This document shows positions 1,051-59,560 of a stretch of 64,000 nt of DNA, piece by piece. Source of the DNA: Amycolatopsis balhimycina FH 1894 (GTDB lineage Bacteria; Actinomycetota; Actinomycetes; Mycobacteriales; Pseudonocardiaceae); the NCBI RefSeq assembly GCF_000384295.1, contig NZ_KB913037.1:1655975-1719974 (forward strand). The letters are read 5' to 3'. Numbering within the stretch: position 1 is the first letter of the stretch; each line of letters starts with the position of its first letter. The notes beneath the pieces were generated by a model. It worked only from the letters and a program-made list of their open reading frames with translations, was not told the origin of the DNA and ran no database searches. The position numbers were made by a program, and so were the translations under genes.

Positions 1051-1070
1051 CGGGCAACCCTATCATTAAT

Positions 1071-1082
1071 AGGTAGATAATT
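1071..1082 (+). promoter_or_regulatory. AT-rich operator-like site 1
   Basis: Core AGGTAGATAATT, followed by ACACTATC, in an AT-rich island spanning 1061-1090. It matches the recurrent core AGTTAGATAATT at 11 of 12 positions. It lies between the end of luxC and the start of the ACAD at 1050, so it would control the ACAD. Function as a repressor operator is inferred from recurrence in this window. Confidence 0.55.
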
Positions 1083-1085
1083 ACA

Positions 1086-2480
1086 CTATCCCTCGTCGCT
1101 GACCCAGCGGACCAGCCGCTGCAGCGGGTAGAAGCCGTCGTGCGGCAGCCCGGCCTCGACGACCGGAACGTGCCCGAGCGTCACGATGCGCTGGGCGCCC
1201 GCCGCGGCGAGCGCGTCCCGCAGCGACTCCTTGCGGGACGCGGGATAGACGCCGACGCTCTGCGTGGCGACGTTGATCCGGCCCAGCGCGTCCTCGAGCC
1301 GGTCCACCGGCACGACGTTCGCCACCTTGCACTCGGGATGGAAGTCGACCGGCTCCTCGGTGCGCACCACCAGCCCGTGGCCCTCGTAGCCACCGAACAC
1401 CCGGGCGTACGGCGCCAGGTCCCGCAGTGCTTCCACTTCGGCGCGGATCTCGGCGGGCACCGGGTTCCCCACCGCCGACCCGAGCCTGCGGGCGACGCCA
1501 AGCCGCGGGAGCAGCGCGGCAGCGAACCGGTCGGCGTCCTCGGCACTGCCCTCGACGTACTGGAACCGGCTGGCCGCGCACGCCTGCTGGTCCATCAGCA
1601 TGATGTCCTGCGCGGCGGCCTCCGCGGCTTCCGTCACCGCGGCGGCGGAACCGAACGCTTCCCGTCCGATCAGGGAAACCGACGTCTTGGGATCGAACGA
1701 CACCAGCTCGAAGCCGGGGCCCACGTAGGCGCGGGCACTGCGCAACGACGCCTCGCCGCCCCAGGCGGCGAGCTTGTCGAAGAACTGCGGCCGGAACAGC
1801 ACCGACTCGACCTCGGTGTCCCCGCCACGCCAGTAGGCGGCGGAGCACGAGCGGGTGGTCGGGTGGCCGGGCGCCACCGCGTGCAGGCCGGCGAGCAGCA
1901 GACTGGTCGAGTAGAGGTCGTTCGACGGCAGCTTGAACAGGTTGACCCCCTTGGTGAGGGCGGCCCGCAGCAGCGAAACCGCGCCGACACCGGGGGCGTT
2001 GCCCGCGAGCACGTGGACCACGCGGGCCGGGAACGCGCGGACCCGGACGGTGCGGCCGGACGGCGGGCCGGTGATCGTCCGCCAGCCGTCGAGGACGTCA
2101 GCGCCCCCAAGCTCCTGCTCGACCATGAACTCCATCGCGCGCCGGCTGAACGTCTTGCCCAACGAGGCGTACGCCTGGCTGAGCACCCCGGCCGGCAGCG
2201 GATTCGTCCGCCGGGCCGCCGCGAGCGCGTCGGCCACCAGGCCGTCCGGGTCCCGGTCCAGCCAGGAACCGAGTTCCCCCAGCAGGTCCATGATCTCGGC
2301 GACCGGCGTGCCGAAGGCCGGTCCCGGTTCGTTCCGCGGCCAGACCAGCGCGTCGAGGTCCAGCGCGGGCGTGACGAAGCGGTTCGCGCCGCTGCCGAAG
2401 GAGCGCTCGTCACCGCTGACCGGCACGCCGCGCTGCACGTGCCACACCCGGTTCGGGGTGTCCGTCTCGAGGGTGGTCAT
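1086..2480 (-). CDS. luxC: LuxC-family acyl reductase
   Basis: LuxC-family fatty-acyl reductase (464 aa), which in the luminescence system uses NADPH to reduce an acyl group handed over by LuxE to the aldehyde. The fold is ALDH-like. The expected nucleophile is Cys301 in DQQACAAS, close to the position of the LuxC catalytic cysteine. HVLAGNAPGVG near 156 and LFKLPSND near 181 are typical LuxC cofactor-domain segments. The start ATG overlaps the luxE stop (ATGA), so the two are translationally coupled. No luxAB is present, so light emission is not the role. The pair may form or consume an aldehyde intermediate in the surrounding acyl-CoA pathway (inference). Confidence 0.88.
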   Translation of the reverse strand: MTTLETDTPNRVWHVQRGVPVSGDERSFGSGANRFVTPALDLDALVWPRNEPGPAFGTPVAEIMDLLGELGSWLDRDPDGLVADALAAARRTNPLPAGVLSQAYASLGKTFSRRAMEFMVEQELGGADVLDGWRTITGPPSGRTVRVRAFPARVVHVLAGNAPGVGAVSLLRAALTKGVNLFKLPSNDLYSTSLLLAGLHAVAPGHPTTRSCSAAYWRGGDTEVESVLFRPQFFDKLAAWGGEASLRSARAYVGPGFELVSFDPKTSVSLIGREAFGSAAAVTEAAEAAAQDIMLMDQQACAASRFQYVEGSAEDADRFAAALLPRLGVARRLGSAVGNPVPAEIRAEVEALRDLAPYARVFGGYEGHGLVVRTEEPVDFHPECKVANVVPVDRLEDALGRINVATQSVGVYPASRKESLRDALAAAGAQRIVTLGHVPVVEAGLPHDGFYPLQRLVRWVSDEG

Positions 2481-3823
2481 GAGGCCAGCGCTCCCCGGAT
2501 GTAGCCGTCGATGGTGCCGGCGCACCCGATCGTGTCGTCGCCGGTCTGATACCGCGTGATGGTGTCGAGGATCGTCGGCCCGGGGCGGCCGCACAGACAC
2601 TGCTCTGCAGTGTCGAACTGCACCCGGTCGCTGGTGATCGTGCCGCTCCAGCGGCCGGTGATGGCGAAGTCCACGAACGCGAAGCGGCCTTCGACCACCT
2701 GCCCGCTGACGTCCTCGGTGTTCAGCAGCGTCTCGCCCGACTGGTCGAGCACGAGTGGCAGCAGGCCCGGCGGGATGTGGTAGCGCAGCTTCTCGCACCG
2801 GTTCATCAGCTGGAACATCTCGGTCATCCCGTAGGTGCCGGTGCGGACGACGTCGCCGTAGAACTGCGCGACCTGCTCCTGGTAGTCGTCCGGGAGGGCC
2901 ACGTTCTTGATCCCGCCGCCCGCGCTGACGATCGTCTCGGCGTGGAAAGCGCCGTCCGGGATACCCCGTTCCCGGGCCCGGTCGCGGACCAGCAGGTGCT
3001 GCGCCCAGGTGCCGGAGATGCTCAGCTTCTCGTTCCGCCGGTCCAGCAGGCGATCGATGAACGCGTCGATGCCGGGGTACAGCGCGGCGCTGCGGGCCTG
3101 CTGCTGCCGTTCGAAGGCGGCGATCTCGCCGGGGGTGGCCTGGCCGTCGGCCATCCGGCGGCGCATGGCCGCGAGGCGGCTGATGTCGGTCAGGCGCAAC
3201 CGCTCGTCGGTCAGGAAGAACGCGTTGTCCGGGGTGGACCACAGGCTCGCCCCGAGGTTCGCCGCATCCGTGGCGCTGTTCACCCCGACGTGCGGCCCCA
3301 GCCAGAAGTAGCTGCGGGAGCCGTCCGCGCGGGCGAAGGGCCAGCCGAGCTGGCGGGCGAAGGCGTCCACTTTGCGCGCGCGGTCTTCGGCGCTGTGCCG
3401 CAGGAACGAGCACTTGCCGGTGGTGCCGCTGGTGGCGATCACGAAGTGGCCGTTTTCCCGCAGCCGGTCGACCCACTCGTCCTCGTCGGCGACGCCGTCG
3501 AAGTCGACGCCGGTCACGTCGTCGGTGGACAAAGTGGTCAGCCAGCGCGCCAGATCCTTCCAGCGCTTCTTTTCCACGAAGCTCGCCGGGTAGGATTTGT
3601 AAGTCGAGTGCGGGAACAGCAACGGAACCAGGTCGCTCTTGCGGGAAATCCGGTCGACACCGGCCTCGCGGGCCCGGCGGTCGAGGATCGGCACCTGCTG
3701 CCGGCGCTCGGCGACCACGGCGTCCGCCGCGGCCAGGTGCAGCGGGAGCAACTCCGCCGCTGGATACCGGTAGAGCTCCGGCGCCTGCCCCAGCTCGAGC
3801 AGTGTGCGGCTGGCCTGGTCCAT
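2477..3823 (-). CDS. luxE: LuxE-family acyl-protein synthetase
   Basis: LuxE/acyl-protein synthetase family (448 aa): ATP-dependent activation of a carboxylic acid to acyl-AMP and transfer to an enzyme cysteine before reduction by LuxC. The adenylate-binding motif SGTTGK is at residues 132-137. The C-terminus has a CLCGRPGP segment (Cys409, Cys411) and Cys434, any of which could carry the acyl group. The start was chosen at the ATG preceded by AAGGAGG. A longer reading frame upstream has no ribosome site and would run over the divergent regulator's leader. It is the first gene of a two-gene operon with luxC. No AT-rich regulon site lies in front of it. Confidence 0.87.
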   Translation of the reverse strand: MDQASRTLLELGQAPELYRYPAAELLPLHLAAADAVVAERRQQVPILDRRAREAGVDRISRKSDLVPLLFPHSTYKSYPASFVEKKRWKDLARWLTTLSTDDVTGVDFDGVADEDEWVDRLRENGHFVIATSGTTGKCSFLRHSAEDRARKVDAFARQLGWPFARADGSRSYFWLGPHVGVNSATDAANLGASLWSTPDNAFFLTDERLRLTDISRLAAMRRRMADGQATPGEIAAFERQQQARSAALYPGIDAFIDRLLDRRNEKLSISGTWAQHLLVRDRARERGIPDGAFHAETIVSAGGGIKNVALPDDYQEQVAQFYGDVVRTGTYGMTEMFQLMNRCEKLRYHIPPGLLPLVLDQSGETLLNTEDVSGQVVEGRFAFVDFAITGRWSGTITSDRVQFDTAEQCLCGRPGPTILDTITRYQTGDDTIGCAGTIDGYIRGALAS

Positions 3824-3895
3824 CGGAAGCCTCCTTGGATCCCGGACGGGGGGTCGGCAGGAAGCGTGCGCCGGTACAGCGGCGGAAACCATGGG

Positions 3896-3923: not shown

Positions 3924-3953
3924 GCCACTTCGGACGGTGAGAGGCGGGCACGG

Positions 3954-5532: not shown

Positions 5533-6684
5533 TCAGTAGGTGCGCAGGCCCATGCTCCGTGCGATGCCATTGCGCTGGATCTGGCTGGTGCCACCGGAGA
5601 TCGTGGCCACGATCGACTCCCGGTAGCGGAAGCTCATCACGCTCTCGGTGGAGAAGCCGTGCCCGGCGCAGACCTGCATGCCCAGCCGGGCGGCGGCGAC
5701 ATACGTCTCCGAGCCCTTCAGCTTCGCCATCGAGCCCTCGCGGGTGCACGGCTTGCCCTGGGCCAGGAGCCAGGCTGCCCGGTACGCGAGCAGCCGGGCC
5801 GAGTCGATCTCGGTCTGCAGGTCGGCGATGGCGTGCGCGATCGCCTGGAAGGTACCGACCGGGCGGCCGAACGCCTGCCGGGTGCGCGCGAACTCGAGCA
5901 TCTCGTCCAGCGTCGCCTGCGCCGCGCCGAGGTAGCCGCCGGTGATGATGACCTTCTCCAGCTCGATGTTGGACAGCATCACCTTCCAGCCTTCTCCGGC
6001 CGGTCCGACCAGGTTCTCCTTGGGCACCACGACGTCACCGAAGAAGACCTCGTTGGTCCCCAGGATGTGCCGGGCGAGGGTGGGGGTCCGGCGGACCTCC
6101 ACCCCCGGGCTCTCCGGGTCGATCAGCAGCAGGCTGATCCCGCTGTGCTTGGGTTCCCGCGGCCCGGTGCGCACGTACGTCGCGATCGTGGTGTCCGGCA
6201 GCCCGGCGCCCGTGCACCAGGCCTTCTGGCCACGGACCACGAAGTGGTCCCCGCGGTCCTCGGCCGTGGTGCGTAGCGCAGCCGCGTCCGACCCGCTGTC
6301 GGGCTCGCTCAGGCCGACCGCAAGCCGGTGCCGGCCGGTCATCACCTGGTCGCGGATGAAGTCCCGTTGCGGTTCGGTTCCCCAGCGGAACACGGTGATC
6401 CCCGGGATGAGCACGCCGATGTAGCACATGGCCACGTCGAAGCTGGCGCGGCCGAGTTCCTCCGCGAGCACGATCAGCTCCACCGGGCCGCCGCCGTCCC
6501 CGCCCTCTTCGGCGGGGAAGGGCAGGGAGAACCAGCCCAGGTCGGCCATGCCGGAGAACAGCTCCGGGGGCACGGCGGACTCCTCGTCCCACTTCTTGGC
6601 CTGTTCCGCCGGACAGACCTTCGCGACGAACTGACGCGCGGTCTCGCGCAACATCCGTTGCTCGTCGGTCAGCTCGAAGTCCAC
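5533..6684 (-). CDS. Acyl-CoA dehydrogenase
   Basis: ACAD (383 aa), FAD enzyme desaturating an acyl-CoA. Motifs include LPFPAEEGGDGGG (N-terminal domain), GLSEPDSGSDAA (flavin loop) and a C-terminal SGGTSQIQRN. The medium-chain catalytic Glu of the usual YEGT motif is replaced by Gly here, so the base must sit elsewhere, as in isovaleryl- and long-chain-type ACADs. The start is GTG (VDFELTDEQ), with a G-rich GGGGG ribosome site. An upstream TTG would lie inside the AT-rich operator-like region. It is monocistronic, with site 2 just upstream. Confidence 0.9.
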   Translation of the reverse strand: MDFELTDEQRMLRETARQFVAKVCPAEQAKKWDEESAVPPELFSGMADLGWFSLPFPAEEGGDGGGPVELIVLAEELGRASFDVAMCYIGVLIPGITVFRWGTEPQRDFIRDQVMTGRHRLAVGLSEPDSGSDAAALRTTAEDRGDHFVVRGQKAWCTGAGLPDTTIATYVRTGPREPKHSGISLLLIDPESPGVEVRRTPTLARHILGTNEVFFGDVVVPKENLVGPAGEGWKVMLSNIELEKVIITGGYLGAAQATLDEMLEFARTRQAFGRPVGTFQAIAHAIADLQTEIDSARLLAYRAAWLLAQGKPCTREGSMAKLKGSETYVAAARLGMQVCAGHGFSTESVMSFRYRESIVATISGGTSQIQRNGIARSMGLRTY

Positions 6685-6712: not shown

Positions 6713-6724
6713 AATCATCTATCT
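6713..6724 (-). promoter_or_regulatory. AT-rich operator-like site 2
   Basis: On the minus strand the core reads AGATAGATGATT, with TAGTGCAAT beside it, in an AT-rich stretch at 6711-6740. It sits about 29 bases upstream of the GTG start of the ACAD and downstream of the GntR gene. The match to AGTTAGATAATT is imperfect, so this is one of the weaker members of the set. Confidence 0.4.
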
Positions 6725-6742
6725 CATTGCACTATATAGGTG

Positions 6743-7477
6743 TCAGCGCAGCAGGTCGAGGACCGTGGTCATCGACCGGTTCCCGAGCAGGTACTCGTGG
6801 GCCTGCTCCAGGTGCGACCGCCACACCAGGGTGGCCTCGGCCGCCTCGCCGGCGGTGACCAGCTCGACCAGCCGGACGTGTGCGCGGAAGCCGCTGAGGT
6901 TGGCCCGGACGTTCTCTTCGGTGCCCGCGTCGAGGTCGACGTGCGACCAGTTCGCCCGGTCGATGATGTGCCGCACCATGCCGTTGAGCAGGGCCAGCGT
7001 CTGGTTGCCCGAGAGCTCCACGACCAGGGCGTGGAACCGCATGTGCGCGCGGATGAACGCGGGCGGGTCGTCGATCAGCGACTCCGCCTCGGCGAGCGCG
7101 GTGTGCAGCCGGTCGAGATCGGCGGCGGTGCGCCGCCCCGCGAGGAGCCCGGCGCACGGCGCTTCGATCACGGTCCGGGCGGCATAGACGTCCTGCAGCG
7201 TCGCCGACCGGTGTTCGAGGATGAACCCGGCGTAGCGCGCGGCGACGGAACCGTCCGGGACGTGCACGCGCGCCCCGCCCCGAGCCCCGCGGCGGATGCT
7301 GATCAGCGACTCCGATTCCAGCACCCGGAACGCCTCCCGCAGTGTCGGCCGCGACACCGCGAACTCCGCCATCAGCTCGGCCTCGGCCGGCAGCGCGTCG
7401 CCTTCGGTCAGCTCGCCGCGGACGATCCGGCGGCGCAGCTCGAGCGCGACCAGTTCGGCCATCTTGGGTATCCGCAC
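6743..7477 (-). CDS. GntR-family regulator, FCD (FadR) subgroup
   Basis: GntR/FadR-type regulator (244 aa). It has an N-terminal winged helix at about residues 5-70, with FAVSRPTLREAFRVLESESLI as recognition region, and an all-helical FCD ligand domain from about 90 to 230. Histidines in RAHMRFHALV, GFRAHVRL and WRSHLEQAHEYL suit the usual FCD metal/ligand site. The start is GTG with AGGAAGG upstream. It is the last gene of the ligase-aldolase-DUF35-MaoC operon, 13 bases after MaoC, so it probably senses an acyl-CoA or acid intermediate of that module and regulates it (inference). Confidence 0.88.
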   Translation of the reverse strand: MRIPKMAELVALELRRRIVRGELTEGDALPAEAELMAEFAVSRPTLREAFRVLESESLISIRRGARGGARVHVPDGSVAARYAGFILEHRSATLQDVYAARTVIEAPCAGLLAGRRTAADLDRLHTALAEAESLIDDPPAFIRAHMRFHALVVELSGNQTLALLNGMVRHIIDRANWSHVDLDAGTEENVRANLSGFRAHVRLVELVTAGEAAEATLVWRSHLEQAHEYLLGNRSMTTVLDLLR

Positions 7478-8348: not shown

Positions 8349-9496
8349 CAGATCCTCCCCAGAACGGACATCTCGTAGTGCTGGGCACCGGAGCCGGCGT
8401 TGCCGACGACGGCGACCTCGGCGCCGGTGACCTGGTGCACGGCGGTTCCGCGCAGCTGCCGCACGGCCTCCACGACCTTGAGCGTCATCTGCTGCGTCCC
8501 GTTCCAGGCATACGACAGGCAGCCGCCGTCCGGGTTCACCGGATACTTGCCGTCCACGGCGATCGCGCCCGTTTCCACCAGCGGGCCACCCTCCCCCTCC
8601 TCGCACACGCCCAGCGCTTCCAGCTGCCGGATGACCTCGAAGGAGTTCGGGTCGTACAGGGAAAAGACGTCCACCTCGGCAGGCCCGACCCCGGCGGTGC
8701 CGAACGCGCGGGCCGCGGCGTCCCGGCCGATCATGCCGACTTCGCGGTACAGCGCGGGATTCGCGTACGCGGCCTGGTGGAACTCCATCCCGCCGCCCAG
8801 GATCGCGACGGGCGACCGCGGCAGGTCGCGCGCGCGCTCGGCGGTGGTCACCACGAACGCGCCGCCACCCTCGCCGACGATGCAGCAGTCCAGGAGATGG
8901 AACGGCGTCGCGACCATCCGCGAGGCCAGGACATCGTCGGCGGTGTACGGACCCCGCCCGTACATCATCGCCTCCGGGTTCGTCGAACCGTTGTTCCGGA
9001 TCGTGGCCGCGACCTCGGCGAGCTGCCGTGGCGTCGTCCCGAACTGGTGCATGTGCCGGGCCGCCACCAGCGCGAACTGGGCCACGACGTAACTGCCCCA
9101 GACGTCGGCGAACTCGACGGGGACGCCCGCACCGACCGGTCCGGTGCCCCGGGAGACCAGCCGGCAGCCGCCGACGACGACCGTGTCGGCCAGCCCCGCC
9201 GACACCGCGGCGGCGGCCTTGAGCAGCCCGCGAGAGCCCGCGTTGTCCAGCATGGCGTCGCTGGTCCAGCGCAGGTTGCCGAGCAGCCGCGCCCACGAGC
9301 TGCCCTCCCCCGGCACGCCACCCGGCCCGGGCCAGTCGACCTGTGCACCGTCTACATCGGACGGGCGAAGGCCGGCGTCGGCGATCGCGCCGGTGACGGC
9401 TTCGAGCGCCAGGTCCATCGCGTCCCGGTGCGGCAGCGACAGCGCCTGCTCGGTGGCGTGGACGCCGACGACGACCGGCTGCCGGACCGTCTTCAC
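8348..9496 (-). CDS. Ltp2-like thiolase-fold aldolase
   Basis: Thiolase-superfamily protein (382 aa) of the lipid-transfer-protein/SCP-x group. The usual nucleophilic Cys is missing: the segment is DNAGSRG at 84-90. The usual GHP histidine motif is replaced by SYAWNG at 328-333. It therefore cannot be a conventional thiolase. Loss of these residues plus a coupled DUF35 partner is what is known for Ltp2, a retro-aldolase that shortens steroid side chains. Tyrosines at 329 and in FSLYDPNSF are candidate catalytic groups. The GTG start overlaps the ligase stop (GTGA). Confidence 0.82.
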   Translation of the reverse strand: MKTVRQPVVVGVHATEQALSLPHRDAMDLALEAVTGAIADAGLRPSDVDGAQVDWPGPGGVPGEGSSWARLLGNLRWTSDAMLDNAGSRGLLKAAAAVSAGLADTVVVGGCRLVSRGTGPVGAGVPVEFADVWGSYVVAQFALVAARHMHQFGTTPRQLAEVAATIRNNGSTNPEAMMYGRGPYTADDVLASRMVATPFHLLDCCIVGEGGGAFVVTTAERARDLPRSPVAILGGGMEFHQAAYANPALYREVGMIGRDAAARAFGTAGVGPAEVDVFSLYDPNSFEVIRQLEALGVCEEGEGGPLVETGAIAVDGKYPVNPDGGCLSYAWNGTQQMTLKVVEAVRQLRGTAVHQVTGAEVAVVGNAGSGAQHYEMSVLGRI

Positions 9497-11067: not shown

Positions 11068-11110
11068 CGTGATCACTCCTTGGACCTGACACTCCGGAAA
11101 AGGCTAACCT

Positions 11111-11123
11111 ATTTAGCTGAACT
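11111..11123 (-). promoter_or_regulatory. AT-rich operator-like site 3
   Basis: On the minus strand AGTTCAGCTAAAT followed by AGGTTAG, about 45 bases upstream of the ligase start and behind the ACAD operon. One extra base is inserted relative to the core AGTTAGATAATT, so this is a weaker match. It is placed to control the ligase-Ltp-DUF35-MaoC-GntR operon. Confidence 0.42.
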
Positions 11124-13498: not shown

Positions 13499-13519
13499 CC
13501 GGCACACCTTCCCGCAATC

Positions 13520-13531
13520 AGTTATATAATT
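13520..13531 (+). promoter_or_regulatory. AT-rich operator-like site 4
   Basis: Core AGTTATATAATT preceded by ATC and followed by ATAGTCTTA. It differs from AGTTAGATAATT at one base and is nearly palindromic. It sits midway in the divergent gap between the ACAD-pair operon and a crotonase gene, so one site could control both directions. Confidence 0.6.
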
Positions 13532-14399: not shown

Positions 14400-14418
14400 C
14401 GAGGCGCCGGGTGCGGGT

Positions 14419-14471: not shown

Positions 14472-14486
14472 CTTCGGGAGCCGCGC

Positions 14487-17148: not shown

Positions 17149-17199
17149 CCGCCCTCCTCGACTCGGCCCGCTCCACAAGCTAGCATAAAGAATAAGATT

Positions 17200-17211
17200 A
17201 GTTAACTGATT
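17200..17211 (+). promoter_or_regulatory. AT-rich operator-like site 5
   Basis: Core AGTTAACTGATT, with ATT before it forming an imperfect palindrome, in the 72-base gap between the divergent serine-hydrolase-fold operon and the SDR at 17221. It shares the AGTTAACTGAT form with site 11. It lies only nine bases before the SDR start, so binding there would block that gene's initiation region. Confidence 0.58.
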
Positions 17212-23493: not shown

Positions 23494-23537
23494 GCCGCCG
23501 ATGCTAGCAGTCGTTCATTCATCTATCCATATCTATT

Positions 23538-23549
23538 AGTTAGATAATT
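23538..23549 (+). promoter_or_regulatory. AT-rich operator-like site 6 (best match)
   Basis: Exact core AGTTAGATAATT within ATCTATTAGTTAGATAATTT, in the 105-base gap between the divergent DUF35 operon and the TetR gene at 23599. It could regulate both directions. It serves as the reference sequence for the set. Confidence 0.65.
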
Positions 23550-23598: not shown

Positions 23599-24174
23599 AT
23601 GACACTGCGGGAGCGGAACCGGCTGCGGACCGCGGCCGACGTCGAGGCGGCCGCGCTCGAACTGTTCGAACGGCACGGTTACGACCACACCACCGTGGAG
23701 CAGATCGCCGTCCGGGCCGGGATCTCCAGCGCGACGTTCTTCCGGTACTTCCGGGCCAAGGAGGACGTGCTCTTCAGCGGGGAGGACGCGTCGGCGGGCG
23801 CACTGGTCGCCCTGGTGGCCCAGCGGCGCGACCGCCGGCGCACGGTGGCCGCGCTCGCGGAACCGGTGTGCCGGTTCGCCCACGGCTCGGTCGCCGGTCC
23901 GGCCACCAGCGGCCAGCGGCTGACCCACCTCGTCATGACCACGCCGGCGCTGGAGTCCCGCAGCCTCCGGCTCCGGCTGCGCTGGGAACGCGAGGTCGCG
24001 GCCCAGCTGGCGCGCGAAGCCGGCACCGGCCGGCCGGACCTGGGCCAGACGCTGGCCGCGGCGATCGCGGTGTCCTGCCTCACCAGCGCGCTTCGGGCCG
24101 GCCACCACAGCGGCGGCTCGATCGCCCACCTGACCCGGCGGGCGTTCGCCCACTGCGCCGACCTCACCCGCTGA
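23599..24174 (+). CDS. TetR-family transcriptional regulator
   Basis: TetR repressor (191 aa). The helix-turn-helix at about residues 12-55 includes TTVEQIAVRAGISSATFFRYF, and an arginine-rich helical ligand domain follows. It is divergent from the DUF35-Ltp-thiolase operon and lies 41 bases upstream of an amidohydrolase gene, with which it is probably cotranscribed. An exact AT-rich core lies in front of it, so it is either autoregulated or a target of the general regulator. Its ligand is not evident. Confidence 0.87.
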   Translation: MTLRERNRLRTAADVEAAALELFERHGYDHTTVEQIAVRAGISSATFFRYFRAKEDVLFSGEDASAGALVALVAQRRDRRRTVAALAEPVCRFAHGSVAGPATSGQRLTHLVMTTPALESRSLRLRLRWEREVAAQLAREAGTGRPDLGQTLAAAIAVSCLTSALRAGHHSGGSIAHLTRRAFAHCADLTR

Positions 24175-26595: not shown

Positions 26596-26646
26596 CTGGG
26601 CCGACTCCTCGTCCCGGCCTGGTCAGCCGTTGCCGTCGGGTCATTC

Positions 26647-26658
26647 AGTTAGCTAATT
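26647..26658 (+). promoter_or_regulatory. AT-rich operator-like site 7
   Basis: Core AGTTAGCTAATT, one base from the reference and with a perfect TTAGCTAA centre, followed by AAACTATAAC. It lies between the divergent ACAD (start at 26595) and TetR (start at 26746) genes, nearer the ACAD. Confidence 0.6.
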
Positions 26659-26745: not shown

Positions 26746-27342
26746 GTGGATCAGTCGTCGGAACGCGATCGGATCATCGACGCCGCGTACCGCGCCCTGG
26801 CGGCCACGGGCGGCACCAGCCTGTCGGTGAACGAGGTGCTGCGGTCCGCCGGGCTGTCCACCCGCGCGTTCTACCGCCTCTTCGACTCGAAGGACGAACT
26901 GCTGCTCGCCCTGTTCCGGCAGGACTCCGACCGGGTGGCCGCCCGCCTGCGCCGCGCCGCGGCCGCCGAGCCTCCCGCCGCCGCCCTCCTGTCCTTCGTG
27001 CAGGCCATGCTGCGGATCACCGCCGATCCGCGCCGGCGCCAGCGCGTCCTGGTCATGTCCTCCGAGGAGATCGCGCGCGCGAAGGGGTACCTCACCGAGC
27101 GTCAGCGCTACCACGCGCTCGTGCAGGGCGAACTGGTCCACATCCTCGAACGCGGCCGAGCCGACGGCACGTTTCCGCTGGCCCAGCCGACCTCGGACGC
27201 CGGCTGGATCCGCGCCGCGATCCAGCATGCCTTCGACGAGCAGATCGCCGGGACCGCCCCGGCCACCCCGAACGAGACGGCCGAGTTGCTGACCGGCTTC
27301 GCGCTGCGCGCCCTCGGCGCGCAGGCACCCGCCATCTCCTGA
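26746..27342 (+). CDS. TetR-family transcriptional regulator
   Basis: TetR-family repressor (198 aa): HTH at about residues 10-52, including SVNEVLRSAGLSTRAFYRLF, then a helical ligand-binding domain ending in ELLTGFALRALG. The start was chosen at GTG (VDQSSERDRI) because AAGGGAGGGG precedes it; an earlier in-frame GTG has no ribosome site. It sits between an ACAD (divergent) and an amidohydrolase-TesB operon (same strand). A TGAAAA/TTTTCA inverted repeat over the next promoter is a possible target. Confidence 0.87.
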   Translation: MDQSSERDRIIDAAYRALAATGGTSLSVNEVLRSAGLSTRAFYRLFDSKDELLLALFRQDSDRVAARLRRAAAAEPPAAALLSFVQAMLRITADPRRRQRVLVMSSEEIARAKGYLTERQRYHALVQGELVHILERGRADGTFPLAQPTSDAGWIRAAIQHAFDEQIAGTAPATPNETAELLTGFALRALGAQAPAIS

Positions 27343-29704: not shown

Positions 29705-29736
29705 CCACCCTTCCGGTCGGCCACCCTCTCGGATAT

Positions 29737-29749
29737 AGTTAGATGAATT
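29737..29749 (+). promoter_or_regulatory. AT-rich operator-like site 8
   Basis: AGTTAGATGAATT followed by GACTATTAG, which is the core with one inserted base. It lies 35 bases before the chosen start of the MmgE/PrpD gene and would control that four-gene operon. Confidence 0.55.
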
Positions 29750-37955: not shown

Positions 37956-40999
<3,044 letters not shown>

Positions 41000-41000
<1 letters not shown>

Positions 41001-46127: not shown

Positions 46128-46139
46128 AATTATCTAACC
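46128..46139 (-). promoter_or_regulatory. AT-rich operator-like site 10
   Basis: On the minus strand GGTTAGATAATT, one base from the reference, followed by AGAAGGG, a likely ribosome site for the hotdog gene. The site is only eight bases upstream of the ATG, so bound protein would block initiation of the 46120-42205 operon. Confidence 0.6.
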
Positions 46140-46143
46140 TATC

Positions 46144-46995: not shown

Positions 46996-47011
46996 TATCA
47001 GTTAACTGATA
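46996..47011. promoter_or_regulatory. AT-rich operator-like site 11 (perfect palindrome)
   Basis: TATCAGTTAACTGATA is a perfect 16-base palindrome containing the AGTTAACTGATA form of the core, followed by TAGATAATAG. It lies in the 60-base gap between the divergent TesB-like and CoA-ligase genes. The symmetry is the strongest evidence that a dimeric regulator binds these sites. Confidence 0.65.
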
Positions 47012-52527: not shown

Positions 52528-53265
52528 TCAGCCCGCCTGCCCGCCGAGGTAGGAGTCGAACAGTTCGGCGTTCAGCAGGTCCGCGGCCGGTCCGCCGTGC
52601 ACGATCCGGCCGCGGCGCAGGATGTACGCGTGCCCGGCCATCGCGAGCGCTCGCCGGGCGAACTGGTCGACGATCAGCAAGGCCGTGCCCTCGGCAGCAC
52701 GCTGCTGAAGGAACCCGAAGATCTCGTCGACGATGATCGGCGCGAGCCCCAGCGACGCCTCGTCGACCAGCACCAGATCCGGGCTCCGGACGTACGCGGC
52801 CGCCATCGCCAGCATCTGCTGCTGCCCGCCGCTGAGGGTGCCCGCCTGCTGGCTCAGCCGTTCTCCGAGGATCGGGAAAGCGGCCACCGCCCGCTCGACG
52901 GCGTCGTCCTCCCGCCCGGCGGCGCCCTGGAGGACGAGGTTCTCCCGGACGGTCAGCCCGCGGAAGACGCCCCGGCCCTCCGGGACGTGACAGAGCCCGC
53001 GCGCGAACCGCCGCGGGGCACGCTCACCCGTGACGTCGCGGCCCGCGATCCGGATCGTGCCCGAGCGCACCGGAAGCAGGCCGGACACCGCGCGCAGCAC
53101 CGTGGTCTTGCCCGCGCCGTTCGAGCCGAGCAGGGCGACGACCGAGCCGGCAGGCACCACCAAGGAGACCTCGCGCAGGACGGTGGTCTGCCCGTAGCCC
53201 GCCGACACGCCGTCGACCTCGAGGGCCGGCGGCGCGATCGACGGGGCGTCGAGGGTGCTGGTCAT
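52528..53265 (-). CDS. livF: Branched-chain amino-acid-type ABC transporter ATPase LivF
   Basis: LivF-type ABC ATPase (245 aa): Walker A GSNGAGKTT near residue 48, LSGGQQQM signature, Walker B LVLVDEASLGLAP (Ala in place of the usual Pro), and D-loop region. It energises uptake with the fused LivH-LivM-LivG protein. The ATG overlaps the stop of that gene (ATGA). In catabolic clusters Liv-type systems often import carboxylic acids rather than amino acids. Confidence 0.92.
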   Translation of the reverse strand: MTSTLDAPSIAPPALEVDGVSAGYGQTTVLREVSLVVPAGSVVALLGSNGAGKTTVLRAVSGLLPVRSGTIRIAGRDVTGERAPRRFARGLCHVPEGRGVFRGLTVRENLVLQGAAGREDDAVERAVAAFPILGERLSQQAGTLSGGQQQMLAMAAAYVRSPDLVLVDEASLGLAPIIVDEIFGFLQQRAAEGTALLIVDQFARRALAMAGHAYILRRGRIVHGGPAADLLNAELFDSYLGGQAG

Positions 53266-55943
53266 CGGACCTCCGATTCGGCCAGGGATTCGTCCGACCC
53301 GAGATAGGCGGCCTGCACGACCGGGCTGGCCGCGACCTCGGCCGGGGTTCCGTGGAAGAGCAGGCGGCCGAAGTCGAGGACGTAGATGTCGGTGCAGATC
53401 CCCATCACCAGGGCGATGTCGTGCTCGACGAGCAGCACGCCGACGCCGCGCTCCTCGACCACCCGCTGGAGGATTTCCCCGAAGCGGCCGGTCTCTTCGT
53501 GATCCAGGCCGGACGACGGCTCGTCGAGCAGCAGCACGTCGAACGGCCCGGCCAGGCAGCGGGCCAGCTCGACGAGACGGCGCTGCCCGGTCGACAGCGC
53601 GCCGGCCTGTTCGTCGGCCAGGTGCGTGATCCCGCACAGCTCCATCGCCGACCACGCCGCGGCTTCGGCCGCCTTCCACTCCGCCGGGCGCGCCGCGAGC
53701 TGCGCGAGGACACCGGAACCCGCTTGCGCGCATTCCCGTCCCAGCAGCACGTTCTGCGCCACGGTGAGCGTTTCGCAGAGTTCCATGCGCTGGAACGTCC
53801 GGCCGATGCCGCTGCGGCCGCGCTGCGCGGGCGGCATCCGGGTGATGTCGCGGTCGTGCAGCAGCACCTGACCGCCGAACCGCCGGTTCAGGCCGCTGCA
53901 GACGTTGAACGTGGTGGTCTTTCCCGCGCCGTTGGGGCCGATCAGCCCGGTGATCCGGCCGAGCGGCGCGTCGAAGCTGAGGTTCTCCACAGCGGTCAGG
54001 CCGCCGAAGGACACCGACAGGCCGCGCACGGAAACGCCGCTTCCGGCGGCGACCCGGCGCGGCGGCACTTCGGCCACGACGGGCGCCCGCCGCCGGCCGC
54101 CGAGGCGGTCGAGCAGGACGCGCAACCGGTGCGGCATCGGTGGACCGCCGCCCCGCACGGCGACGAGAACCGCGGACACGCCGAAGACGATCCCGAGGAC
54201 CTCCGTGACCCCGTCACCCGGGACATAGCCGGGGATCACGTTCGTCAGCGCGATCAACGCGTACCACGGCTCGGCCAGGGTCGCCAGGCTCAGCTGGGCG
54301 AGCAGTTGCAGGGAAGCGAAGGGCTGGAAGAACGCGTCCGACCCGACCGCGAACATCCGGGCGACGCCGAGCAGTGCCCCGGCGATCCCGGCCAGGAACG
54401 CCGACACGCAGAAGACGATCACCTTGGACACGGTGGTGCTCAGGCCCATCGACGTGACGGCCGTCGGCGAGTCCGCCATCCCCTGCAGCAGCCGGCCGAG
54501 CCGGCCCCGCTGGATCAGCACCAGCAGCACCGCGACCACCACCAGCACGGCCAGCACGACGTAGTAGTAGCCGCCGTCGTCCGGCGCGAAGTCCGGCCGC
54601 GGCATCGTGCGGCCCTGGGACAGCGACGTGAACATGTACTGCTCGTGGTAGAGCAGTTGCTGCACGAGAATGCCGAACCCGAACGTCGCCAGGGCCAGGA
54701 ACAGGCCCGAGAGCCGGATCGCGGGCAACGCGACCAGCGCGCCCACCGGCACCACGACCAGCCCGCCCAGCACGAGGGCGACCACCCACGGCAGGCCGAG
54801 GTCGACGGCGAACTGGGAGAACGCCACCGCACCGATCGCCGCGAACGCCGCGTGGCACAGCGAAACCTGGCCCGAGGTGCGCACCAGCAGGCCGAGCGAG
54901 AGCAGCATGATCGCGCTGACCAGCGCGGCGATCCAGAACGGGAGATTGTCCGGGCCGACGAGCTGCGGCAGCAAGAGCAGCACCACCACGACGAGCACGC
55001 CGGTGGCCAGCCGCACCCGGCCGGGCGCGCGGTAGGACGGCGGTGGCCGTCTCTCCACTGTGGACGGCCGGACCAGCTTGCGCTTGGGCAGCACCAGCAA
55101 CGTCACGAAGAGCACGAGGAACGGCAACGCGGACGGCAGCCCGCTCAGCCACGGCACGTCGAGGACGTAGTGCTGGGAAACGGCCGAGGCGACGCCGATC
55201 ACCAGGCCACCGGCGAACGTCAGCGGGATGTTGCCGAACGCGCCGACCGCGGCCGCGCCGAACGCCTGCACCACGAGGAAGGTCAGGCCGACGGCGTCCA
55301 AGCCGATCAGTGGCATGACCAGCACCCCGGACAAAGCCGTGAATGTCGATCCGATGATCCACGCGATCCGCCGGACGCGCCGGGGGTCGGTGGCCTGCAT
55401 CGCCAGCAGGTCCGGGTCGTCGACGACGGCTCGCATGGCCAGGCCGATCCGGGCGAACCGGAACATCGCGTACAGCGCCGCGACCGCGACCACCGCGATG
55501 GCCACGATGGTGACCTGGCCCCACGCGACCACCGCGCCGAACAGGCGGAAGCTCGCCTGCCCGGCCGGCAGCCACGGCTCGACCTGGATGGTGTTCGCTC
55601 CGTACCGCAGGGTGGCCAGGCCCTGCACCGCCAGGATGATGCCGACCGTGCCGACGATCTGCAGGGCGATCCGCTGCGGCGCCAGCCGGGCCGCGATGCG
55701 CTCCATCAGCAACCCGATCACCGGGCCCACGAGCCCCACGCTGACGATCAGGGCGACCGTCCAATGCAGACCGAACTCGGTGTGCAGCGCGTAGAACACG
55801 TAGGCCGCGACAGTGGCGATCGCGCCGTGGCCGAAGTTGAAGATGCCCGATGACTTGTAGGTCAGCACCAGGCCCGTCCCGGCCAGGCCGTAGATCGCCC
55901 CGGCGGCGATCCCGGCGACGACGAAGGGCAGCAGCTGCAGCAC
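53262..55943 (-). CDS. Fused LivH-LivM-LivG transporter protein
   Basis: A single 893-residue chain with three parts. LivH-type permease (about 1-295; FNFGHGAIATVAAYV, NIPLTFAGGLVIG); LivM-type permease (about 310-610; GQVSLCHAAFAAIGA, ALPAIRLSGLFLALATFGFG); and LivG-type ATPase (about 645-893; Walker A GPNGAGKTTT near 672, LSTGQRRL signature, LLLDEPSSGLD). I see no internal stop or frameshift. The fusion fixes the permease and ATPase stoichiometry. It starts at GTG after AGGAAGG, 12 bases downstream of the livK stop. Confidence 0.92.
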   Translation of the reverse strand: MLQLLPFVVAGIAAGAIYGLAGTGLVLTYKSSGIFNFGHGAIATVAAYVFYALHTEFGLHWTVALIVSVGLVGPVIGLLMERIAARLAPQRIALQIVGTVGIILAVQGLATLRYGANTIQVEPWLPAGQASFRLFGAVVAWGQVTIVAIAVVAVAALYAMFRFARIGLAMRAVVDDPDLLAMQATDPRRVRRIAWIIGSTFTALSGVLVMPLIGLDAVGLTFLVVQAFGAAAVGAFGNIPLTFAGGLVIGVASAVSQHYVLDVPWLSGLPSALPFLVLFVTLLVLPKRKLVRPSTVERRPPPSYRAPGRVRLATGVLVVVVLLLLPQLVGPDNLPFWIAALVSAIMLLSLGLLVRTSGQVSLCHAAFAAIGAVAFSQFAVDLGLPWVVALVLGGLVVVPVGALVALPAIRLSGLFLALATFGFGILVQQLLYHEQYMFTSLSQGRTMPRPDFAPDDGGYYYVVLAVLVVVAVLLVLIQRGRLGRLLQGMADSPTAVTSMGLSTTVSKVIVFCVSAFLAGIAGALLGVARMFAVGSDAFFQPFASLQLLAQLSLATLAEPWYALIALTNVIPGYVPGDGVTEVLGIVFGVSAVLVAVRGGGPPMPHRLRVLLDRLGGRRRAPVVAEVPPRRVAAGSGVSVRGLSVSFGGLTAVENLSFDAPLGRITGLIGPNGAGKTTTFNVCSGLNRRFGGQVLLHDRDITRMPPAQRGRSGIGRTFQRMELCETLTVAQNVLLGRECAQAGSGVLAQLAARPAEWKAAEAAAWSAMELCGITHLADEQAGALSTGQRRLVELARCLAGPFDVLLLDEPSSGLDHEETGRFGEILQRVVEERGVGVLLVEHDIALVMGICTDIYVLDFGRLLFHGTPAEVAASPVVQAAYLGSDESLAESEVR

Positions 55944-55955
55944 GGTGGCGCCTTC

Positions 55956-57173
55956 CTAGCTGGGGCAGGTGGGCTGGGCGGAGCCGGCGAACGCGCCGTT
56001 CTGGTACTGGTACAGCCAGTAGCAGTTCACCGGCGGGGCGGGCTGGTCGGCCGTGAAGGTGATCGGCTGCGGCAGCAGGCCGTCCAGCGTCTCGCCCTTG
56101 ACCTTGCCGTAGGCGGCCAGCACGGCCTGCCGGGTGACGGTGTCCGTCGCCTGGCCCGCCGCCGGGGTCAGCGCCTTCTTGAACAGCTCGCCGCTGGCCC
56201 ACAGCGCGGTCGACGCGGGCTGCCCGGAATCGCTGTCCGCCACGCCCTCCTCGGACATCGCCGCCCGGTAGGCCTTGACCGGTGCCGTGTCGGCCCACCA
56301 CGGGAACGCGTTGAGCGCGCCGGCCAGCTTGATGTTCGGCGCGTGGTACAGCGTCGGGGAAATCGCCGACGCCGACGACCCGAAGTAGCCCGTGTAGCCC
56401 TGCGCCTGGCAGTCCTTGACGACCCGCACGCCCACCGCGGGCGAGATCGACAGCTGGACGAAGTCGACCTTGCGGTTGACCAGGTCCAGGCACTGCGCGG
56501 TGTAGTTCGGGGCGGCGGCCGCGACCTGCATCGTGCCCGAGTAGGTGTTGCCCGCGGCCTTGGCCGCCGCCTCGAACAGCGGCACGGCCGCCACGCAGGC
56601 GGGCTCCTCCGCGCACGCGACCACCGAGATGGCGTTGCCGCCGACCGGCTTCGCCGAGGCGATCTGCATGTTGACCACCTGCGGGAAGGTGGTGGTGATG
56701 CCGAACCAGTTCTTCAGCTTGCCCCACACCGTCGGGTTGTAGCCGATGCCGCCGGTGACCGGCAGCCCGGAGTCGGCGAGGATGGCCCCCACCGCGGGGT
56801 CGGTACTGGTGCTCGCCGCCACCACGGCGACGACGGACTTGTCGGAGATCAGCGACCGGGCGGCGGCCGCCGCGGTCGGTGCGTCCTCCTTGGTGTCCTT
56901 GACGACCACCTGCACCGGGTGCCCGGCGAGGCCGCCGGCCTTGTTGGTGTGCGTGGCCCAGGCCTGGAACACCTTCGTGGCCGACGCTTCGGACGCCCCG
57001 GTGGGGCCGCTGACGTTGGCCAGCACGCCGATCTTGATCGGCGTCCCGGTCAGGCCGTGGGTGTCGGTCGACGCCGACCCGCTGGCCCCGCACGCGGTGC
57101 TCGCGAGCGCGACGGCCGCCAGGCCGGCCGCCCAGCGGAACCGTTTCAGGGCGCGAATTCTCTTCGGGTTCAT
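55956..57173 (-). CDS. Liv-type substrate-binding lipoprotein
   Basis: Periplasmic-binding-protein type I (LivK-like) lipoprotein (405 aa). N-terminal signal with lipobox ASTAC giving a lipidated Cys at residue 29, then IKIGVLANVSGPTGASEAS, the standard start of the family's first lobe. The C-terminal WLYQYQNGAFAGSAQPTC carries another Cys. It binds the imported substrate outside the membrane and delivers it to the fused LivHMG-LivF transporter. The start is the ATG with GAGGAAAA upstream. No AT-rich regulon site lies ahead of it. Confidence 0.9.
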   Translation of the reverse strand: MNPKRIRALKRFRWAAGLAAVALASTACGASGSASTDTHGLTGTPIKIGVLANVSGPTGASEASATKVFQAWATHTNKAGGLAGHPVQVVVKDTKEDAPTAAAAARSLISDKSVVAVVAASTSTDPAVGAILADSGLPVTGGIGYNPTVWGKLKNWFGITTTFPQVVNMQIASAKPVGGNAISVVACAEEPACVAAVPLFEAAAKAAGNTYSGTMQVAAAAPNYTAQCLDLVNRKVDFVQLSISPAVGVRVVKDCQAQGYTGYFGSSASAISPTLYHAPNIKLAGALNAFPWWADTAPVKAYRAAMSEEGVADSDSGQPASTALWASGELFKKALTPAAGQATDTVTRQAVLAAYGKVKGETLDGLLPQPITFTADQPAPPVNCYWLYQYQNGAFAGSAQPTCPS

Positions 57174-57253
57174 GGTTTTCCTCGGATTCTGGGTACGGCG
57201 GCGGCACCGGCACGCAAGCGCGCGGTGTGTTCGTGTTCGGGTAGGGCCGGGGA

Positions 57254-57979
57254 TTACCCGGCCGGCCGCAACGGCGGGGGGTCGACGACCCGGATGCGGG
57301 GTCCGGGAAGTCCGCAGGGGCACGGCGTGTGGTCGAGCGCGGCGGTCCGGCCGACCACGAGGTCCCGCACGACGTGGGCGCGGTCGCCCGCGGTGCTCAG
57401 GGTGACCCCGTCGGGGCCCTCCGCCAGCCGCCACTCGGCCGGATCGACGTGGGCACCCGATCGGTGCGGGCACTCGAGGCCGAGCGCGGGGCCCAGCATC
57501 GCGAAGACGGCCGGGTCCAGGCCCGCGTCGCGCAACGGGTGGATCGCCTCCGGCCGGGCCCAGATCGGGGCCAGCGCGGCCAGTGACCCGGCGCAGTCCG
57601 GCTCTTTCAGCAGCCCCACGGCGGTCTCCCCGGACATGCCGAGGTACGCCCGGAACGGGAGCAACCGGAGGAAGGTCGCGGACCGCCGCACGTCCCAGCC
57701 GTACGGTTCGGCGTTGCTGTGGACGACCCGGCGGTCACGCAGGGCACGCACCACCGGACTCGCCCACGGCCCCTCGAAGTTGGGCGTGCTGATGAGCACG
57801 TGGTCGGCTTCGCCGATGTCCCAGACGTCCAGGACCTGGGCCGCCCACCGCACGTCACGGTCGAATTCGGCCCAGCCGATGTCGAACGGGACCTGCCGGT
57901 CACCGTCGAGGTACAGCCCGATGCCGAACAGCGGGGACACCGGGCCCCGCAACGCCGCGGCCATGCTGACCCTGCTCAT
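57254..57979 (-). CDS. Half-sized PaaK/LuxE-like protein
   Basis: 241-residue protein that I cannot assign to a named family. Its last third (VVRDLVVGRTAALDH, then TPCPCGLPGPRIRV) matches the CxCGxxGPxI segment seen near the end of the LuxE protein and in PaaK-type ligases. The ATP-binding SGTTG motif is lacking; LGMSGETAVG near 116 is only faintly similar. It overlaps the PaaK-type gene by four bases (ATGA), so it may be an accessory or regulatory subunit of that ligase, or a degenerate copy. Confidence 0.6.
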   Translation of the reverse strand: MSRVSMAAALRGPVSPLFGIGLYLDGDRQVPFDIGWAEFDRDVRWAAQVLDVWDIGEADHVLISTPNFEGPWASPVVRALRDRRVVHSNAEPYGWDVRRSATFLRLLPFRAYLGMSGETAVGLLKEPDCAGSLAALAPIWARPEAIHPLRDAGLDPAVFAMLGPALGLECPHRSGAHVDPAEWRLAEGPDGVTLSTAGDRAHVVRDLVVGRTAALDHTPCPCGLPGPRIRVVDPPPLRPAG

Positions 57980-59337
57980 GCCTTCACCACCCGGGGGAAC
58001 TTGGCCACGCTGGAACTGCGGGACAGGAGGTCGTCGACGGTGACGAGGTCGAGGTCGGGCTCGACGCCGACCCGGTCCAGCACGGCGTGCCGCAACCGGG
58101 CCCGCAGTTCGGTGACGTCGGCGGTGCGGGCCGGTTCGTAGCCGACCCTCAGCCGCAACCTGTCCACAATGGCCGATTCACGGATGATCTGGAACATGCC
58201 GTCCTTCGTCTCGGGCTGGGATTCGACGGCGGCCCAGACCTCACCGAGCACGACCGGGACGCCGGCGACCGTCGTCTCCTCGCCGCACCGGCCCACCACC
58301 CACTGCCGGGCGTGGGTCCGCCCGCAGCCGCACGGCTGCCGGTCGATCCGGACGAGATCGCCGCTGCGGTACCGGATCAGCGGTGCCGCGCGGTTGTCCA
58401 GGTCGGTGGCCACCAGCTCGCCGACCGTGCCCTCGCCGGTCGCTTCGCCGGAGGCCGGGTCGAGACTTTCGGCCAGGACGAGGTCCTCCCAGAGGTGGTA
58501 GCCGTCGTGTTCGCGGCACTCCCAGCACGTCCCGGTGTCACCCGCGCTGCTGTAGGTGAACATCTCGACGCCCCAGTCGTCGCGCACCTTTTCGGCGAGC
58601 GCCCGGCCGAGCGGCTGCCCGGCGAACGAGGCGCCCTTGAGGGACGACAGCGCGTCCCGGATGTCGTAGGTGTGCTCCAGCCGTTCGAGCTCGAGCACGG
58701 TCGGCATCATCAGCTGCAGGTAGGCGGGCCGGAACCGCAGCAGGGCCTGGACGATCTCCTCGCCCTTGCCGATCCAGGTGTCCACGAAGATCGGCACCAG
58801 GCCCATGCCGTGGTAGAAGGTGTCGTAGAAGCCCCGGAACGAGCCGGCCGACACGAGGACCTTGTCGCCCGGTCGCAGCCCGATCTCCCACAGGTCGCGC
58901 GCCGAACACAGCTGCAGCGGCGGGTAGGCGTCCCAGATCTCCGGGATCAGCTCGGGATCGCTGGTCGTCCCGGAGGTGGACATGATCGACGACAGCCCGG
59001 ACGGTGGCCCGAACAGCATCCCGCCGAACGGGTCGCCGGTGCGTTCCCGATAGGCCTGGACGTCCTTCTTGGTGAACGTCGGCACCAGCCGGCGGAAGTC
59101 GGCCAGCGAGCGGATCTCGCCGGGGTCGACCCCGGCGGCGGACCACAGCTCGCGGTAGAAGGCTGATTGCGCGTAGGCCTCGGGCACCAGTTCGAGAACG
59201 CGTCGCTGCTGGAACGCCTCCAGTTCCGCGCGGGACGCCGTTTCGAGCTCGGGCTCCAGGTAGCGGCGCGCGTCGCCGGCTGCCACCGCCGGTTCCAGCA
59301 CTGTGGGCTGCGTGTCGGCCACGGTGAGTACCTCCAT
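57976..59337 (-). CDS. PaaK-type phenylacetate-CoA ligase-like protein
   Basis: PaaK/LuxE-superfamily adenylating enzyme (453 aa): IMSTSGTTSDPELIP near 118-132 is the adenylate-binding motif. SSAGDTGTCWECREHDGYHLWED follows the PaaK pattern, and APLIRYRSGDLVRID is the A8-type hinge. PCGCGRTHARQWVVGRCGE is a zinc-like cysteine segment. It should form an aryl- or alicyclic acyl-CoA (or acyl-AMP). The start is the ATG after AAGGG. It is divergent from the TetR gene at 59561, with sites 12 and 13 in between. Confidence 0.85.
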   Translation of the reverse strand: MEVLTVADTQPTVLEPAVAAGDARRYLEPELETASRAELEAFQQRRVLELVPEAYAQSAFYRELWSAAGVDPGEIRSLADFRRLVPTFTKKDVQAYRERTGDPFGGMLFGPPSGLSSIMSTSGTTSDPELIPEIWDAYPPLQLCSARDLWEIGLRPGDKVLVSAGSFRGFYDTFYHGMGLVPIFVDTWIGKGEEIVQALLRFRPAYLQLMMPTVLELERLEHTYDIRDALSSLKGASFAGQPLGRALAEKVRDDWGVEMFTYSSAGDTGTCWECREHDGYHLWEDLVLAESLDPASGEATGEGTVGELVATDLDNRAAPLIRYRSGDLVRIDRQPCGCGRTHARQWVVGRCGEETTVAGVPVVLGEVWAAVESQPETKDGMFQIIRESAIVDRLRLRVGYEPARTADVTELRARLRHAVLDRVGVEPDLDLVTVDDLLSRSSSVAKFPRVVKA

Positions 59338-59356
59338 CGATCGCCCTTGACCAAAG

Positions 59357-59368
59357 AGTTAGAAGATT
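59357..59368 (+). promoter_or_regulatory. AT-rich operator-like site 12
   Basis: AGTTAGAAGATT, with AGAGATTTAGG following, 20 bases upstream of the PaaK-type ligase start. Two bases differ from the reference core. It is the nearer of two sites in the 223-base gap to the TetR gene. Confidence 0.5.
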
Positions 59369-59520
59369 AAGAGATTTAGGTCACGACCGTAACCTCCACG
59401 ATCCGGGAGGCCCAGGGAACGGCGTTCCCGCCATTCGACCCGTTGACGGTCGACGACATCGGTCTCTTCGTGGAGATCAAGTGCCGTCCGCGACGCTTGG
59501 AAGTCGCGCCGCCATAGTGT

Positions 59521-59533
59521 AATTTATTTAACT
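59521..59533 (-). promoter_or_regulatory. AT-rich operator-like site 13
   Basis: On the minus strand AGTTAAATAAATT followed by ACACTATGG; the ACACTAT suffix is shared with site 1. It lies 28 bases before the TetR start and would allow autoregulation by that TetR. Confidence 0.55.
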
Positions 59534-59560
59534 ATTAGAGACGTCCTGAGCGGAGGTGCG

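Follow-up and report, generated by a model that had tools for sequence, protein, structure and literature searches.

The 64,000-nucleotide stretch of DNA analysed here, referred to as the window, comprises bases 1655975-1719974 of the one-contig, 10.86-Mb genome of Amycolatopsis balhimycina FH 1894 (G000), and carries a catabolic gene island in which a 16-base, operator-like motif recurs in the promoter gaps. The motif is real and almost confined to the island, and the evidence supports a single such element tying most of the island into one regulon. As to what reads it, the repeated element is, with a probability of roughly 0.8, the operator of a repressor of the GntR/FCD family, which would bind it, repress the genes behind it and be released by an inducer. 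In other words, the island is very probably one regulon of a GntR/FCD repressor, in which the TetR proteins encoded alongside would themselves be regulated and would act as second-tier regulators. Judged from sequence, it appears to be a conserved regulon of a known repressor kind.

Gene numbers, gene starts and the label 'intergenic' derive from our own gene calls over 135 kb around the window; in this numbering genes 28 and 37 encode GntR/FCD regulators (GntR28, GntR37) and genes 56, 59 and 88 encode TetR regulators (TetR56, TetR59, TetR88). The island reaches about 5 kb upstream of the window, where it holds a fourteenth site and the second GntR gene. An earlier note on this DNA had listed thirteen sites, of which eleven lie at the places given with 0-3 mismatches to the core AGTTAGATAATT, the last beginning at 59522 rather than 59521. 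The site at 46996 is indeed an exact 16-base palindrome, TATCAGTTAACTGATA, too far from the core to appear in a mismatch listing; that at 11111 on the minus strand proves weak, lying beyond three mismatches and being poorly conserved. All thirteen are intergenic, centred 15-55 bases upstream of the nearest start codon, and are given here with their matrix scores; the sister islands are those of G040 and G045 (Amycolatopsis vastitatis H5, of the same genus as the source), and G318 is a more distant relative.

1067..1082 (+): predicted operator upstream of an acyl-CoA dehydrogenase-type gene with start 1050 (-), named from its Rhodococcus jostii ortholog; score 23.6; conserved in both sister islands
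6713..6728 (-): predicted operator upstream of the acyl-CoA dehydrogenase-type gene 5533-6684 (-); score 24.1; the G318 C27 ortholog also has a site
11107..11122 (-): weak operator candidate upstream of the CoA-ligase-type gene 9493-11076 (-); score 15.3, leave-one-out 12.1; weakly conserved; site of the G318 C27 ortholog at 52892
13516..13531 (+): predicted operator in the divergent gap 12368-13498 (-) / 13587-14399 (+); score 29.6
17196..17211 (+): predicted operator in the divergent gap 16048-17148 (-) / 17221-18126 (+); score 27.8
23534..23549 (+): predicted operator in the divergent gap between an OB-fold protein, 23089-23493 (-), and TetR56, 23599-24174 (+); exact core, score 30.7
26643..26658 (+): predicted operator in the divergent gap between an acyl-CoA dehydrogenase-type gene, 25453-26595 (-), and TetR59, 26746-27342 (+); score 28.2
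29733..29748 (+): predicted operator upstream of the MmgE/PrpD-family gene 29784-31154 (+); score 24.7
39774..39789 (+): predicted operator in the divergent gap 38761-39735 (-) / 39840-41000 (+, thiolase-like by eye); score 24.5
46128..46143 (-): predicted operator upstream of the MaoC-like gene 45620-46120 (-); score 19.3
46996..47011 (no strand): predicted operator, perfect 16-base palindrome, in the divergent gap between a thioesterase-type gene, 46144-46986 (-), and a CoA-ligase-type gene, 47047-48498 (+); score 26.7
59353..59368 (+): predicted operator near the PaaK-like ligase gene 57976-59337 (-); score 19.9
59522..59537 (-): predicted operator directly upstream of TetR88, 59561-60250 (+); score 28.1

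At up to three mismatches AGTTAGATAATT has 17 matches in the window, against 1.07 (standard deviation 0.98) by chance, and none of 100 shuffles reaches 17. Across the whole genome, all seven places at up to one mismatch fall in the island, including one that lies 3.1 kb upstream of the window, and the reversed-pattern control gives none. At up to two mismatches 11 of 15 places are in the island, the reversed control giving 11 matches. Two results speak against strict exclusivity: a looser 16-base pattern is not specific at up to three mismatches (89 matches genome-wide vs 65 for its control), and four of the 13 off-island loci that were fetched and scored with the matrix reach at least 15 (23.6, 18.2, 15.8 and 15.8). 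The first of these (L023 1501-1516, genome 9519123) stands beside another near-match.

The matrix is symmetrised, has 16 columns and was built from the 14 island sites, which score 12.1 to 30.1 when left out in turn; the best score in the 64 kb of the same genome adjoining the island is 9.6. Genes 25 to 94 have 29 gaps of 20 bases or more ahead of a gene start; 13 of them reach scores of 15.6 or higher, and the other 16 score no higher than 4.2. Matrix scoring of the gaps finds no GntR-type site for the genes of Liv, SDR and luciferase-like type that close the island on the right. In this regard, the statement of the earlier note that no site precedes luxE-luxC, DinB, the HNH gene, Liv or the secreted proteins holds here and fails in G318, where sites lie upstream of Liv-like genes (18.3 and 18.7) and a weaker one (15.0) upstream of a luxE-like gene.

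Relatives of the island were tested by the summed matrix score of each region against matrices with permuted columns (200 or 300 per region), the fractions below being the controls that come up to the true score. In G040 and G045 the order of genes 26-93 is kept almost throughout, and in the gap alignments listed the sites stand as conserved blocks in otherwise diverging gaps, with the 11111 site as the exception. Searching with TetR88 brought up G318 and G441, two members of a single genus from a different family of the same order, in which the island is heavily reshuffled; the Amycolatopsis matrix nevertheless scores above all controls in G318, G318 C27 and G441 (0/300 each), and the G318 C27 orthologs of genes 27, 36, 41, 44, 58 and 87 keep their sites. 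The top 12 matches fall in gaps 12, 12 and 11 times, against control means of 8.6, 9.5 and 7.6, which is a weak test because control matrices also land in gaps. Plasmids carry the motif as well: that of Rhodococcus sp. DMU1, with two GntR28-type genes and TetR56, narrowly (0/300, 154.4 vs a control maximum of 152.6, the flanks of the stretch being weak or negative at 3/300 and 164/300), and those of Streptomyces NBC_00564 and Mycobacterium branderi, fetched because both GntR types are present, at 0/300 each. Ten regions from eight genomes with a GntR37-type protein yielded seven positives at 0/200 each (G746, G781, G699, G612, G801, G721a and, narrowly at 100.5 vs 100.0, G541b). Overall, the same matrix marks reshuffled island relatives of several genera, with sites nearly always before gene starts. 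The cluster on pRHL2 of Rhodococcus jostii RHA1 has no operator array (50/300, and 39/300 in a second scan), the surroundings of a TetR88-like gene in G242 are negative (129/300), and a mismatch-pattern scan of G475, which has a weak TetR88 match, finds no site.

Taken over 118 sites scoring at least 17, the element is a 16-base pseudo-palindrome of consensus ~ AATYAGTTA-RMTRATT with half-site ~ A-N-[C/A]-T-R-A-T-T. These sites come from 13 regions (the G000 island, G318, G318 C27, G441, DMU1, Streptomyces NBC_00564, M. branderi, G746, G781, G699, G612, G801 and G721a); the negative regions, G541b and G065 are left out, and G040 and G045 serve for conservation without counting as independent sites. 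All but one (117/118) are intergenic, and 116 of these 117 lie within 300 bases upstream of a gene start. The dyad symmetry described earlier for 46996 and 39778 is perfect at the former and not good at the latter, and most sites are asymmetric. Since the halves GATAAT and TATAAT resemble -10 boxes and the sites are close to start codons, the elements might be AT-rich -10 boxes, or the island might have promoters for a special sigma factor. This is very improbable: conservation is two-sided over 16 bases, one site often serves the gap between two divergent genes, and the places at up to one mismatch are confined to the island in 10.86 Mb. Moreover, the asymmetry of the sites is independent of gene direction. 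Among asymmetric sites with a single flanking gene, the -10-like half faces that gene in 22 cases and the opposite way in 15, and among the 47 in divergent gaps it faces the nearer gene in only 16, so that the plain -10 explanation, which the earlier note had itself raised as a possible objection, is unsupported.

The asymmetry is centred on half-site position 3, where 84 of 117 sites combine A with C (54.6 expected; 0/5000 shuffles reach 84), 25 have C in both halves, four have A in both and four carry T. As G746, G781 and G699 share many sites, the count was repeated with one genome per clade, giving 49/68 against 32.0 expected (0/5000). Such a bias would be expected if the binder were a heterodimer of two GntR paralogs, one on each half of the site, and two or more GntR28/37-type genes do occur in many of the fetched islands. 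The recognition stretch is, however, common to both paralogs, and G441, in whose fetched stretch only GntR28 is seen, still has A/C sites in 8 of 8 cases, which speaks against a 28-37 heterodimer being strictly required; this alternative is unlikely.

The case for GntR28 and GntR37 as binders is chiefly one of co-occurrence. The regulators concerned are the following.

6743..7462 (-): GntR37, GntR/FCD regulator, one of two proposed binders; Pfam GntR 1.1e-17, FCD 1.3e-19; co-occurs with the motif
genome 1653001-1653756, 3 kb upstream of the window: GntR28, second proposed binder; recognition stretch common with GntR37
23599..24174 (+): TetR56, probably a regulon member rather than the binder; R. 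jostii pRHL2 ortholog without the motif
26746..27342 (+): TetR59, probably a regulon member rather than the binder; R. jostii pRHL2 ortholog without the motif
59561..60250 (+): TetR88, remote KstR relative, probable regulon member with a putative operator of its own

Membership of the GntR/FCD family is clear, with Pfam scores (GntR + FCD) of 63.8 + 71.2 bits for GntR37 and 61.3 + 78.6 for GntR28 against cut-offs of 27 + 24.3. In an alignment that leaves out six duplicate loci and sequences of up to 150 residues, the two proteins have the recognition stretch SRPTLREAF in common, and they probably read the same sites, although they stand in separate parts of a tree built without redundant sequences and those of up to 200 residues, and printed without support values. 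A GntR28/37-type protein, the best copy 47-76% identical, is present in the fetched stretches of every motif-bearing genome, and among the five candidate regulators this is the only type found in every motif-bearing relative fetched. At 1e-40 a GntR37-type protein occurs in 57 of 394 genomes of the class (own included); at 1e-35 GntR28/37-type proteins occur in four of 80 Amycolatopsis genomes, namely in two copies each in the three known array carriers and in one copy, at 47%, in G065. The last of these gives the strongest single result, a near-blind test: chosen by its GntR alone, G065 has in the 60 kb around the gene AATCAGCTAACTGATT (28.0), TATTATATAACTGATT (27.4) and other sites, exceeding all controls (0/300), and neither TetR56, TetR59 nor TetR88 is found there at 1e-8. 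An earlier count in G065 with a 12-base pattern had been unremarkable (6 matches vs 5 for the control). The promoter gap of GntR28 itself holds a site; GntR37 has none directly before it and sits in the gene run behind the weak 11107 site. Autoregulation is also suggested in another genus, where a tandem GntR28-type pair has the site AAACAGTTAGTTGATT 57 bases before its first gene (L227 10137-10152; whole region 6/300).

The earlier note had named the three TetR proteins and the GntR as candidate binders, and co-occurrence favours the GntR. It is true that the promoter of each of the three TetR genes bears a site, that the reshuffled G318 and G441 islands retain TetR88 and TetR56, and that TetR88 was present in three of 80 Amycolatopsis genomes, the three array carriers known at that point. 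TetR88 was initially favoured because it was found in the same genomes as the array, and then became improbable with the motif-bearing plasmids, relatives and G065 in whose fetched stretches it is not found. tblastn at 1e-12 detects no TetR56, TetR59 or TetR88 in the motif-bearing stretches fetched (40 kb for the two plasmids, and stretches rather than whole genomes throughout) from Streptomyces NBC_00564, M. branderi, G746, G781, G699, G801, G721a and G541b; G612 shows only a 56-residue TetR56-like piece; and no plasmid record matches TetR88 at 1e-5, yet the DMU1 plasmid has the motif. TetR88 has, besides, a different element in all six of its promoters. The pRHL2 cluster of R. jostii is informative in the opposite sense, having orthologs of many of the island's enzymes (identity 45-76% for the closer ones), of TetR56 (52%) and of TetR59 (44%), but only distant GntRs (30-36%) and no motif. 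Among the plasmids, TetR56 is unaccompanied by the motif in pRHL2 and accompanied by it in DMU1, which has two GntR28-type genes. A TetR binder is therefore quite improbable.

Several observations weigh against a GntR/FCD binder. GntR-based choice gave 16 regions, 10 of which score above every control and six of which are negative, namely G544 (36/200), G721b (46/200), G541a (46/200), Rhodococcus rhodochrous (66/300), Rhodococcus sp. BH4 (17/300) and G242b (6/300), the GntRs of the two rhodococci being at 38-43%. G544 even has the same recognition stretch. Strong sites within 1.5 kb occur at only seven of the 29 GntR37-type loci from other genomes, and one of 200 controls comes up to the total of the set. 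The positives G699, G612, G801 and G541b were not blind, because a site near the GntR had already been seen; G746 and G781 had shown none. Fetched stretches show only GntR37 in G318 and only GntR28 in G441, TetR56/59 without the motif is seen in one relative only, and the matrix scan covered, of the 80 Amycolatopsis genomes, the four GntR28/37 carriers. As regards the form of the site, GntR operators generally have the form GT-N-AC; 12 of the 118 sites, including the perfect palindrome, carry AC in both halves and thereby have the full form, which fits, but AC stands in one half of 68 and in neither of 38, which makes the argument weak.

Two other sequences were seen beside these negatives. 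The best matches in R. rhodochrous and Rhodococcus sp. BH4 (L166, L167), whose GntRs form a sister clade with a differing wing, hint at a variant operator, ACTTAGTTAACTAAGT, and GTCTGTTAACATAA recurs some 300 bases upstream of GntR37-type genes without the main motif nearby (L182, L188, L192).

Under the preferred GntR/FCD explanation, a dimer would bind the 16-base pseudo-palindrome such that the repressor overlaps the promoter or transcript start and blocks transcription; a pathway intermediate, an acid or CoA ester, would bind the FCD domain and cause the repressor to leave, and its release would open 13 promoter gaps together (14 sites, 13 in the window). Within the FCD domain, E100, H144, H195 and H217 are conserved at 100%, 96%, 73% and 98% across the GntR set of the tree, and these are candidates for its acid/histidine metal-site residues. 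The best solved relatives are NanR (8.2e-17) and PdhR (1.7e-9), of the FadR subfamily, which have the same Pfam GntR and FCD domains; the histidines of NanR align with the conserved ones of the GntR28/37 set. GntR37 nevertheless falls short of the NCBIfam models for NanR, LldR and PdhR (113.5 of 260, 64 of 311 and 59.7 of 330 bits), and the operators and target genes of NanR/PdhR-type regulators differ from those of the GntR28/37 island. In its working the island regulon would resemble that of KstR/KstR2, in which a single factor acts through operators in front of many beta-oxidation operons belonging to a large cluster. Only remotely related to KstR, TetR88 stays below the KstR model (37.4 of 280 bits), and the main island operator differs from TNNAACNNGTTNNA, the KstR site as quoted in the earlier note, its proposed binder being a GntR and not a TetR.

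A wider reading, possible but doubtful, is that of a portable regulon, in which one asymmetric GntR/FCD operator would mark the promoters of a pool of CoA-ester catabolic genes, otherwise reshuffled without constraint, across four or more actinobacterial families (f1, f8, f32 and f33, with f27 borderline), operator and repressor rather than gene order would define the module, and the paralogs would act as heterodimers or competing homodimers. What the element offers is a testable operator and a named candidate repressor for a family of uncharacterised catabolic islands, and a natural example of an operator that has persisted while genes were extensively shuffled. Promoters bearing it could reveal genes of the pathway wherever the cluster is scattered, and the identity of the inducer would point to the substrate of the island.

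TetR88, for its part, may have an operator of its own. The pattern GGAACNNNGTTCC occurs at up to one mismatch within 300 bases upstream of six of six TetR88 orthologs in five genomes (G000, G040, G045, G441 and two in G318), each time intergenic. The copies of note in the window are these.

59416..59428 (no strand): GGAACGGCGTTCC, putative TetR88 operator
62436..62448 (no strand): second putative TetR88 operator, one mismatch, in the gap upstream of the SDR-type gene 61540-62388 (-) (gene 91); the aligned gap of each sister island has an exact GGAACCCGGTTCC

A further one-mismatch copy precedes gene 93 (64289, just past the window), and both sister islands likewise have its 13-mer ahead of gene 93, some copies being labelled coding by the gene calls. 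According to matrix scoring the gaps before genes 91 and 93 have no GntR operator, so that TetR88 may govern them, and some of the right-end genes of Liv, SDR and luciferase-like type may belong to TetR88. The pattern was, however, chosen by eye after reading three of those gaps, which makes it a lead and not a test, and single copies mean little, since 135 kb of the same genome hold ten matches at up to one mismatch, six of them in coding sequence (one exact). Another palindrome, GGTNACGNNCGTNACC, in the gap between genes 87 and 88 was scanned in all regions and is background-like among the matches listed (best 12 per region). Close by, a block of some 45 bases around the 59353 site (59349-59393), including GGTCACGACCGTAACC, has hardly changed among three Amycolatopsis and survives in part in G318 and G441, a conservation that exceeds the needs of an operator.

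No pathway is nameable from the island proteins: when NCBIfam models were applied to 20 further proteins, only the general crotonase model PRK07327 (gene 13587-14399) was above its cut-off among the rows listed. Elsewhere in the window, the HNH-type gene 35784-37010 (-) is mobile relative to the island, having no ortholog in the G045 stretch and another place in G040; repeated palindromic CCTGAATGACTCATTCAGG-like units lie between convergent genes at 14400-14486 and are absent from both sister islands; and the AT skew peaks at 54001-56000 (0.435, then 0.246 per kb) within the Liv-type gene 53262-55943.

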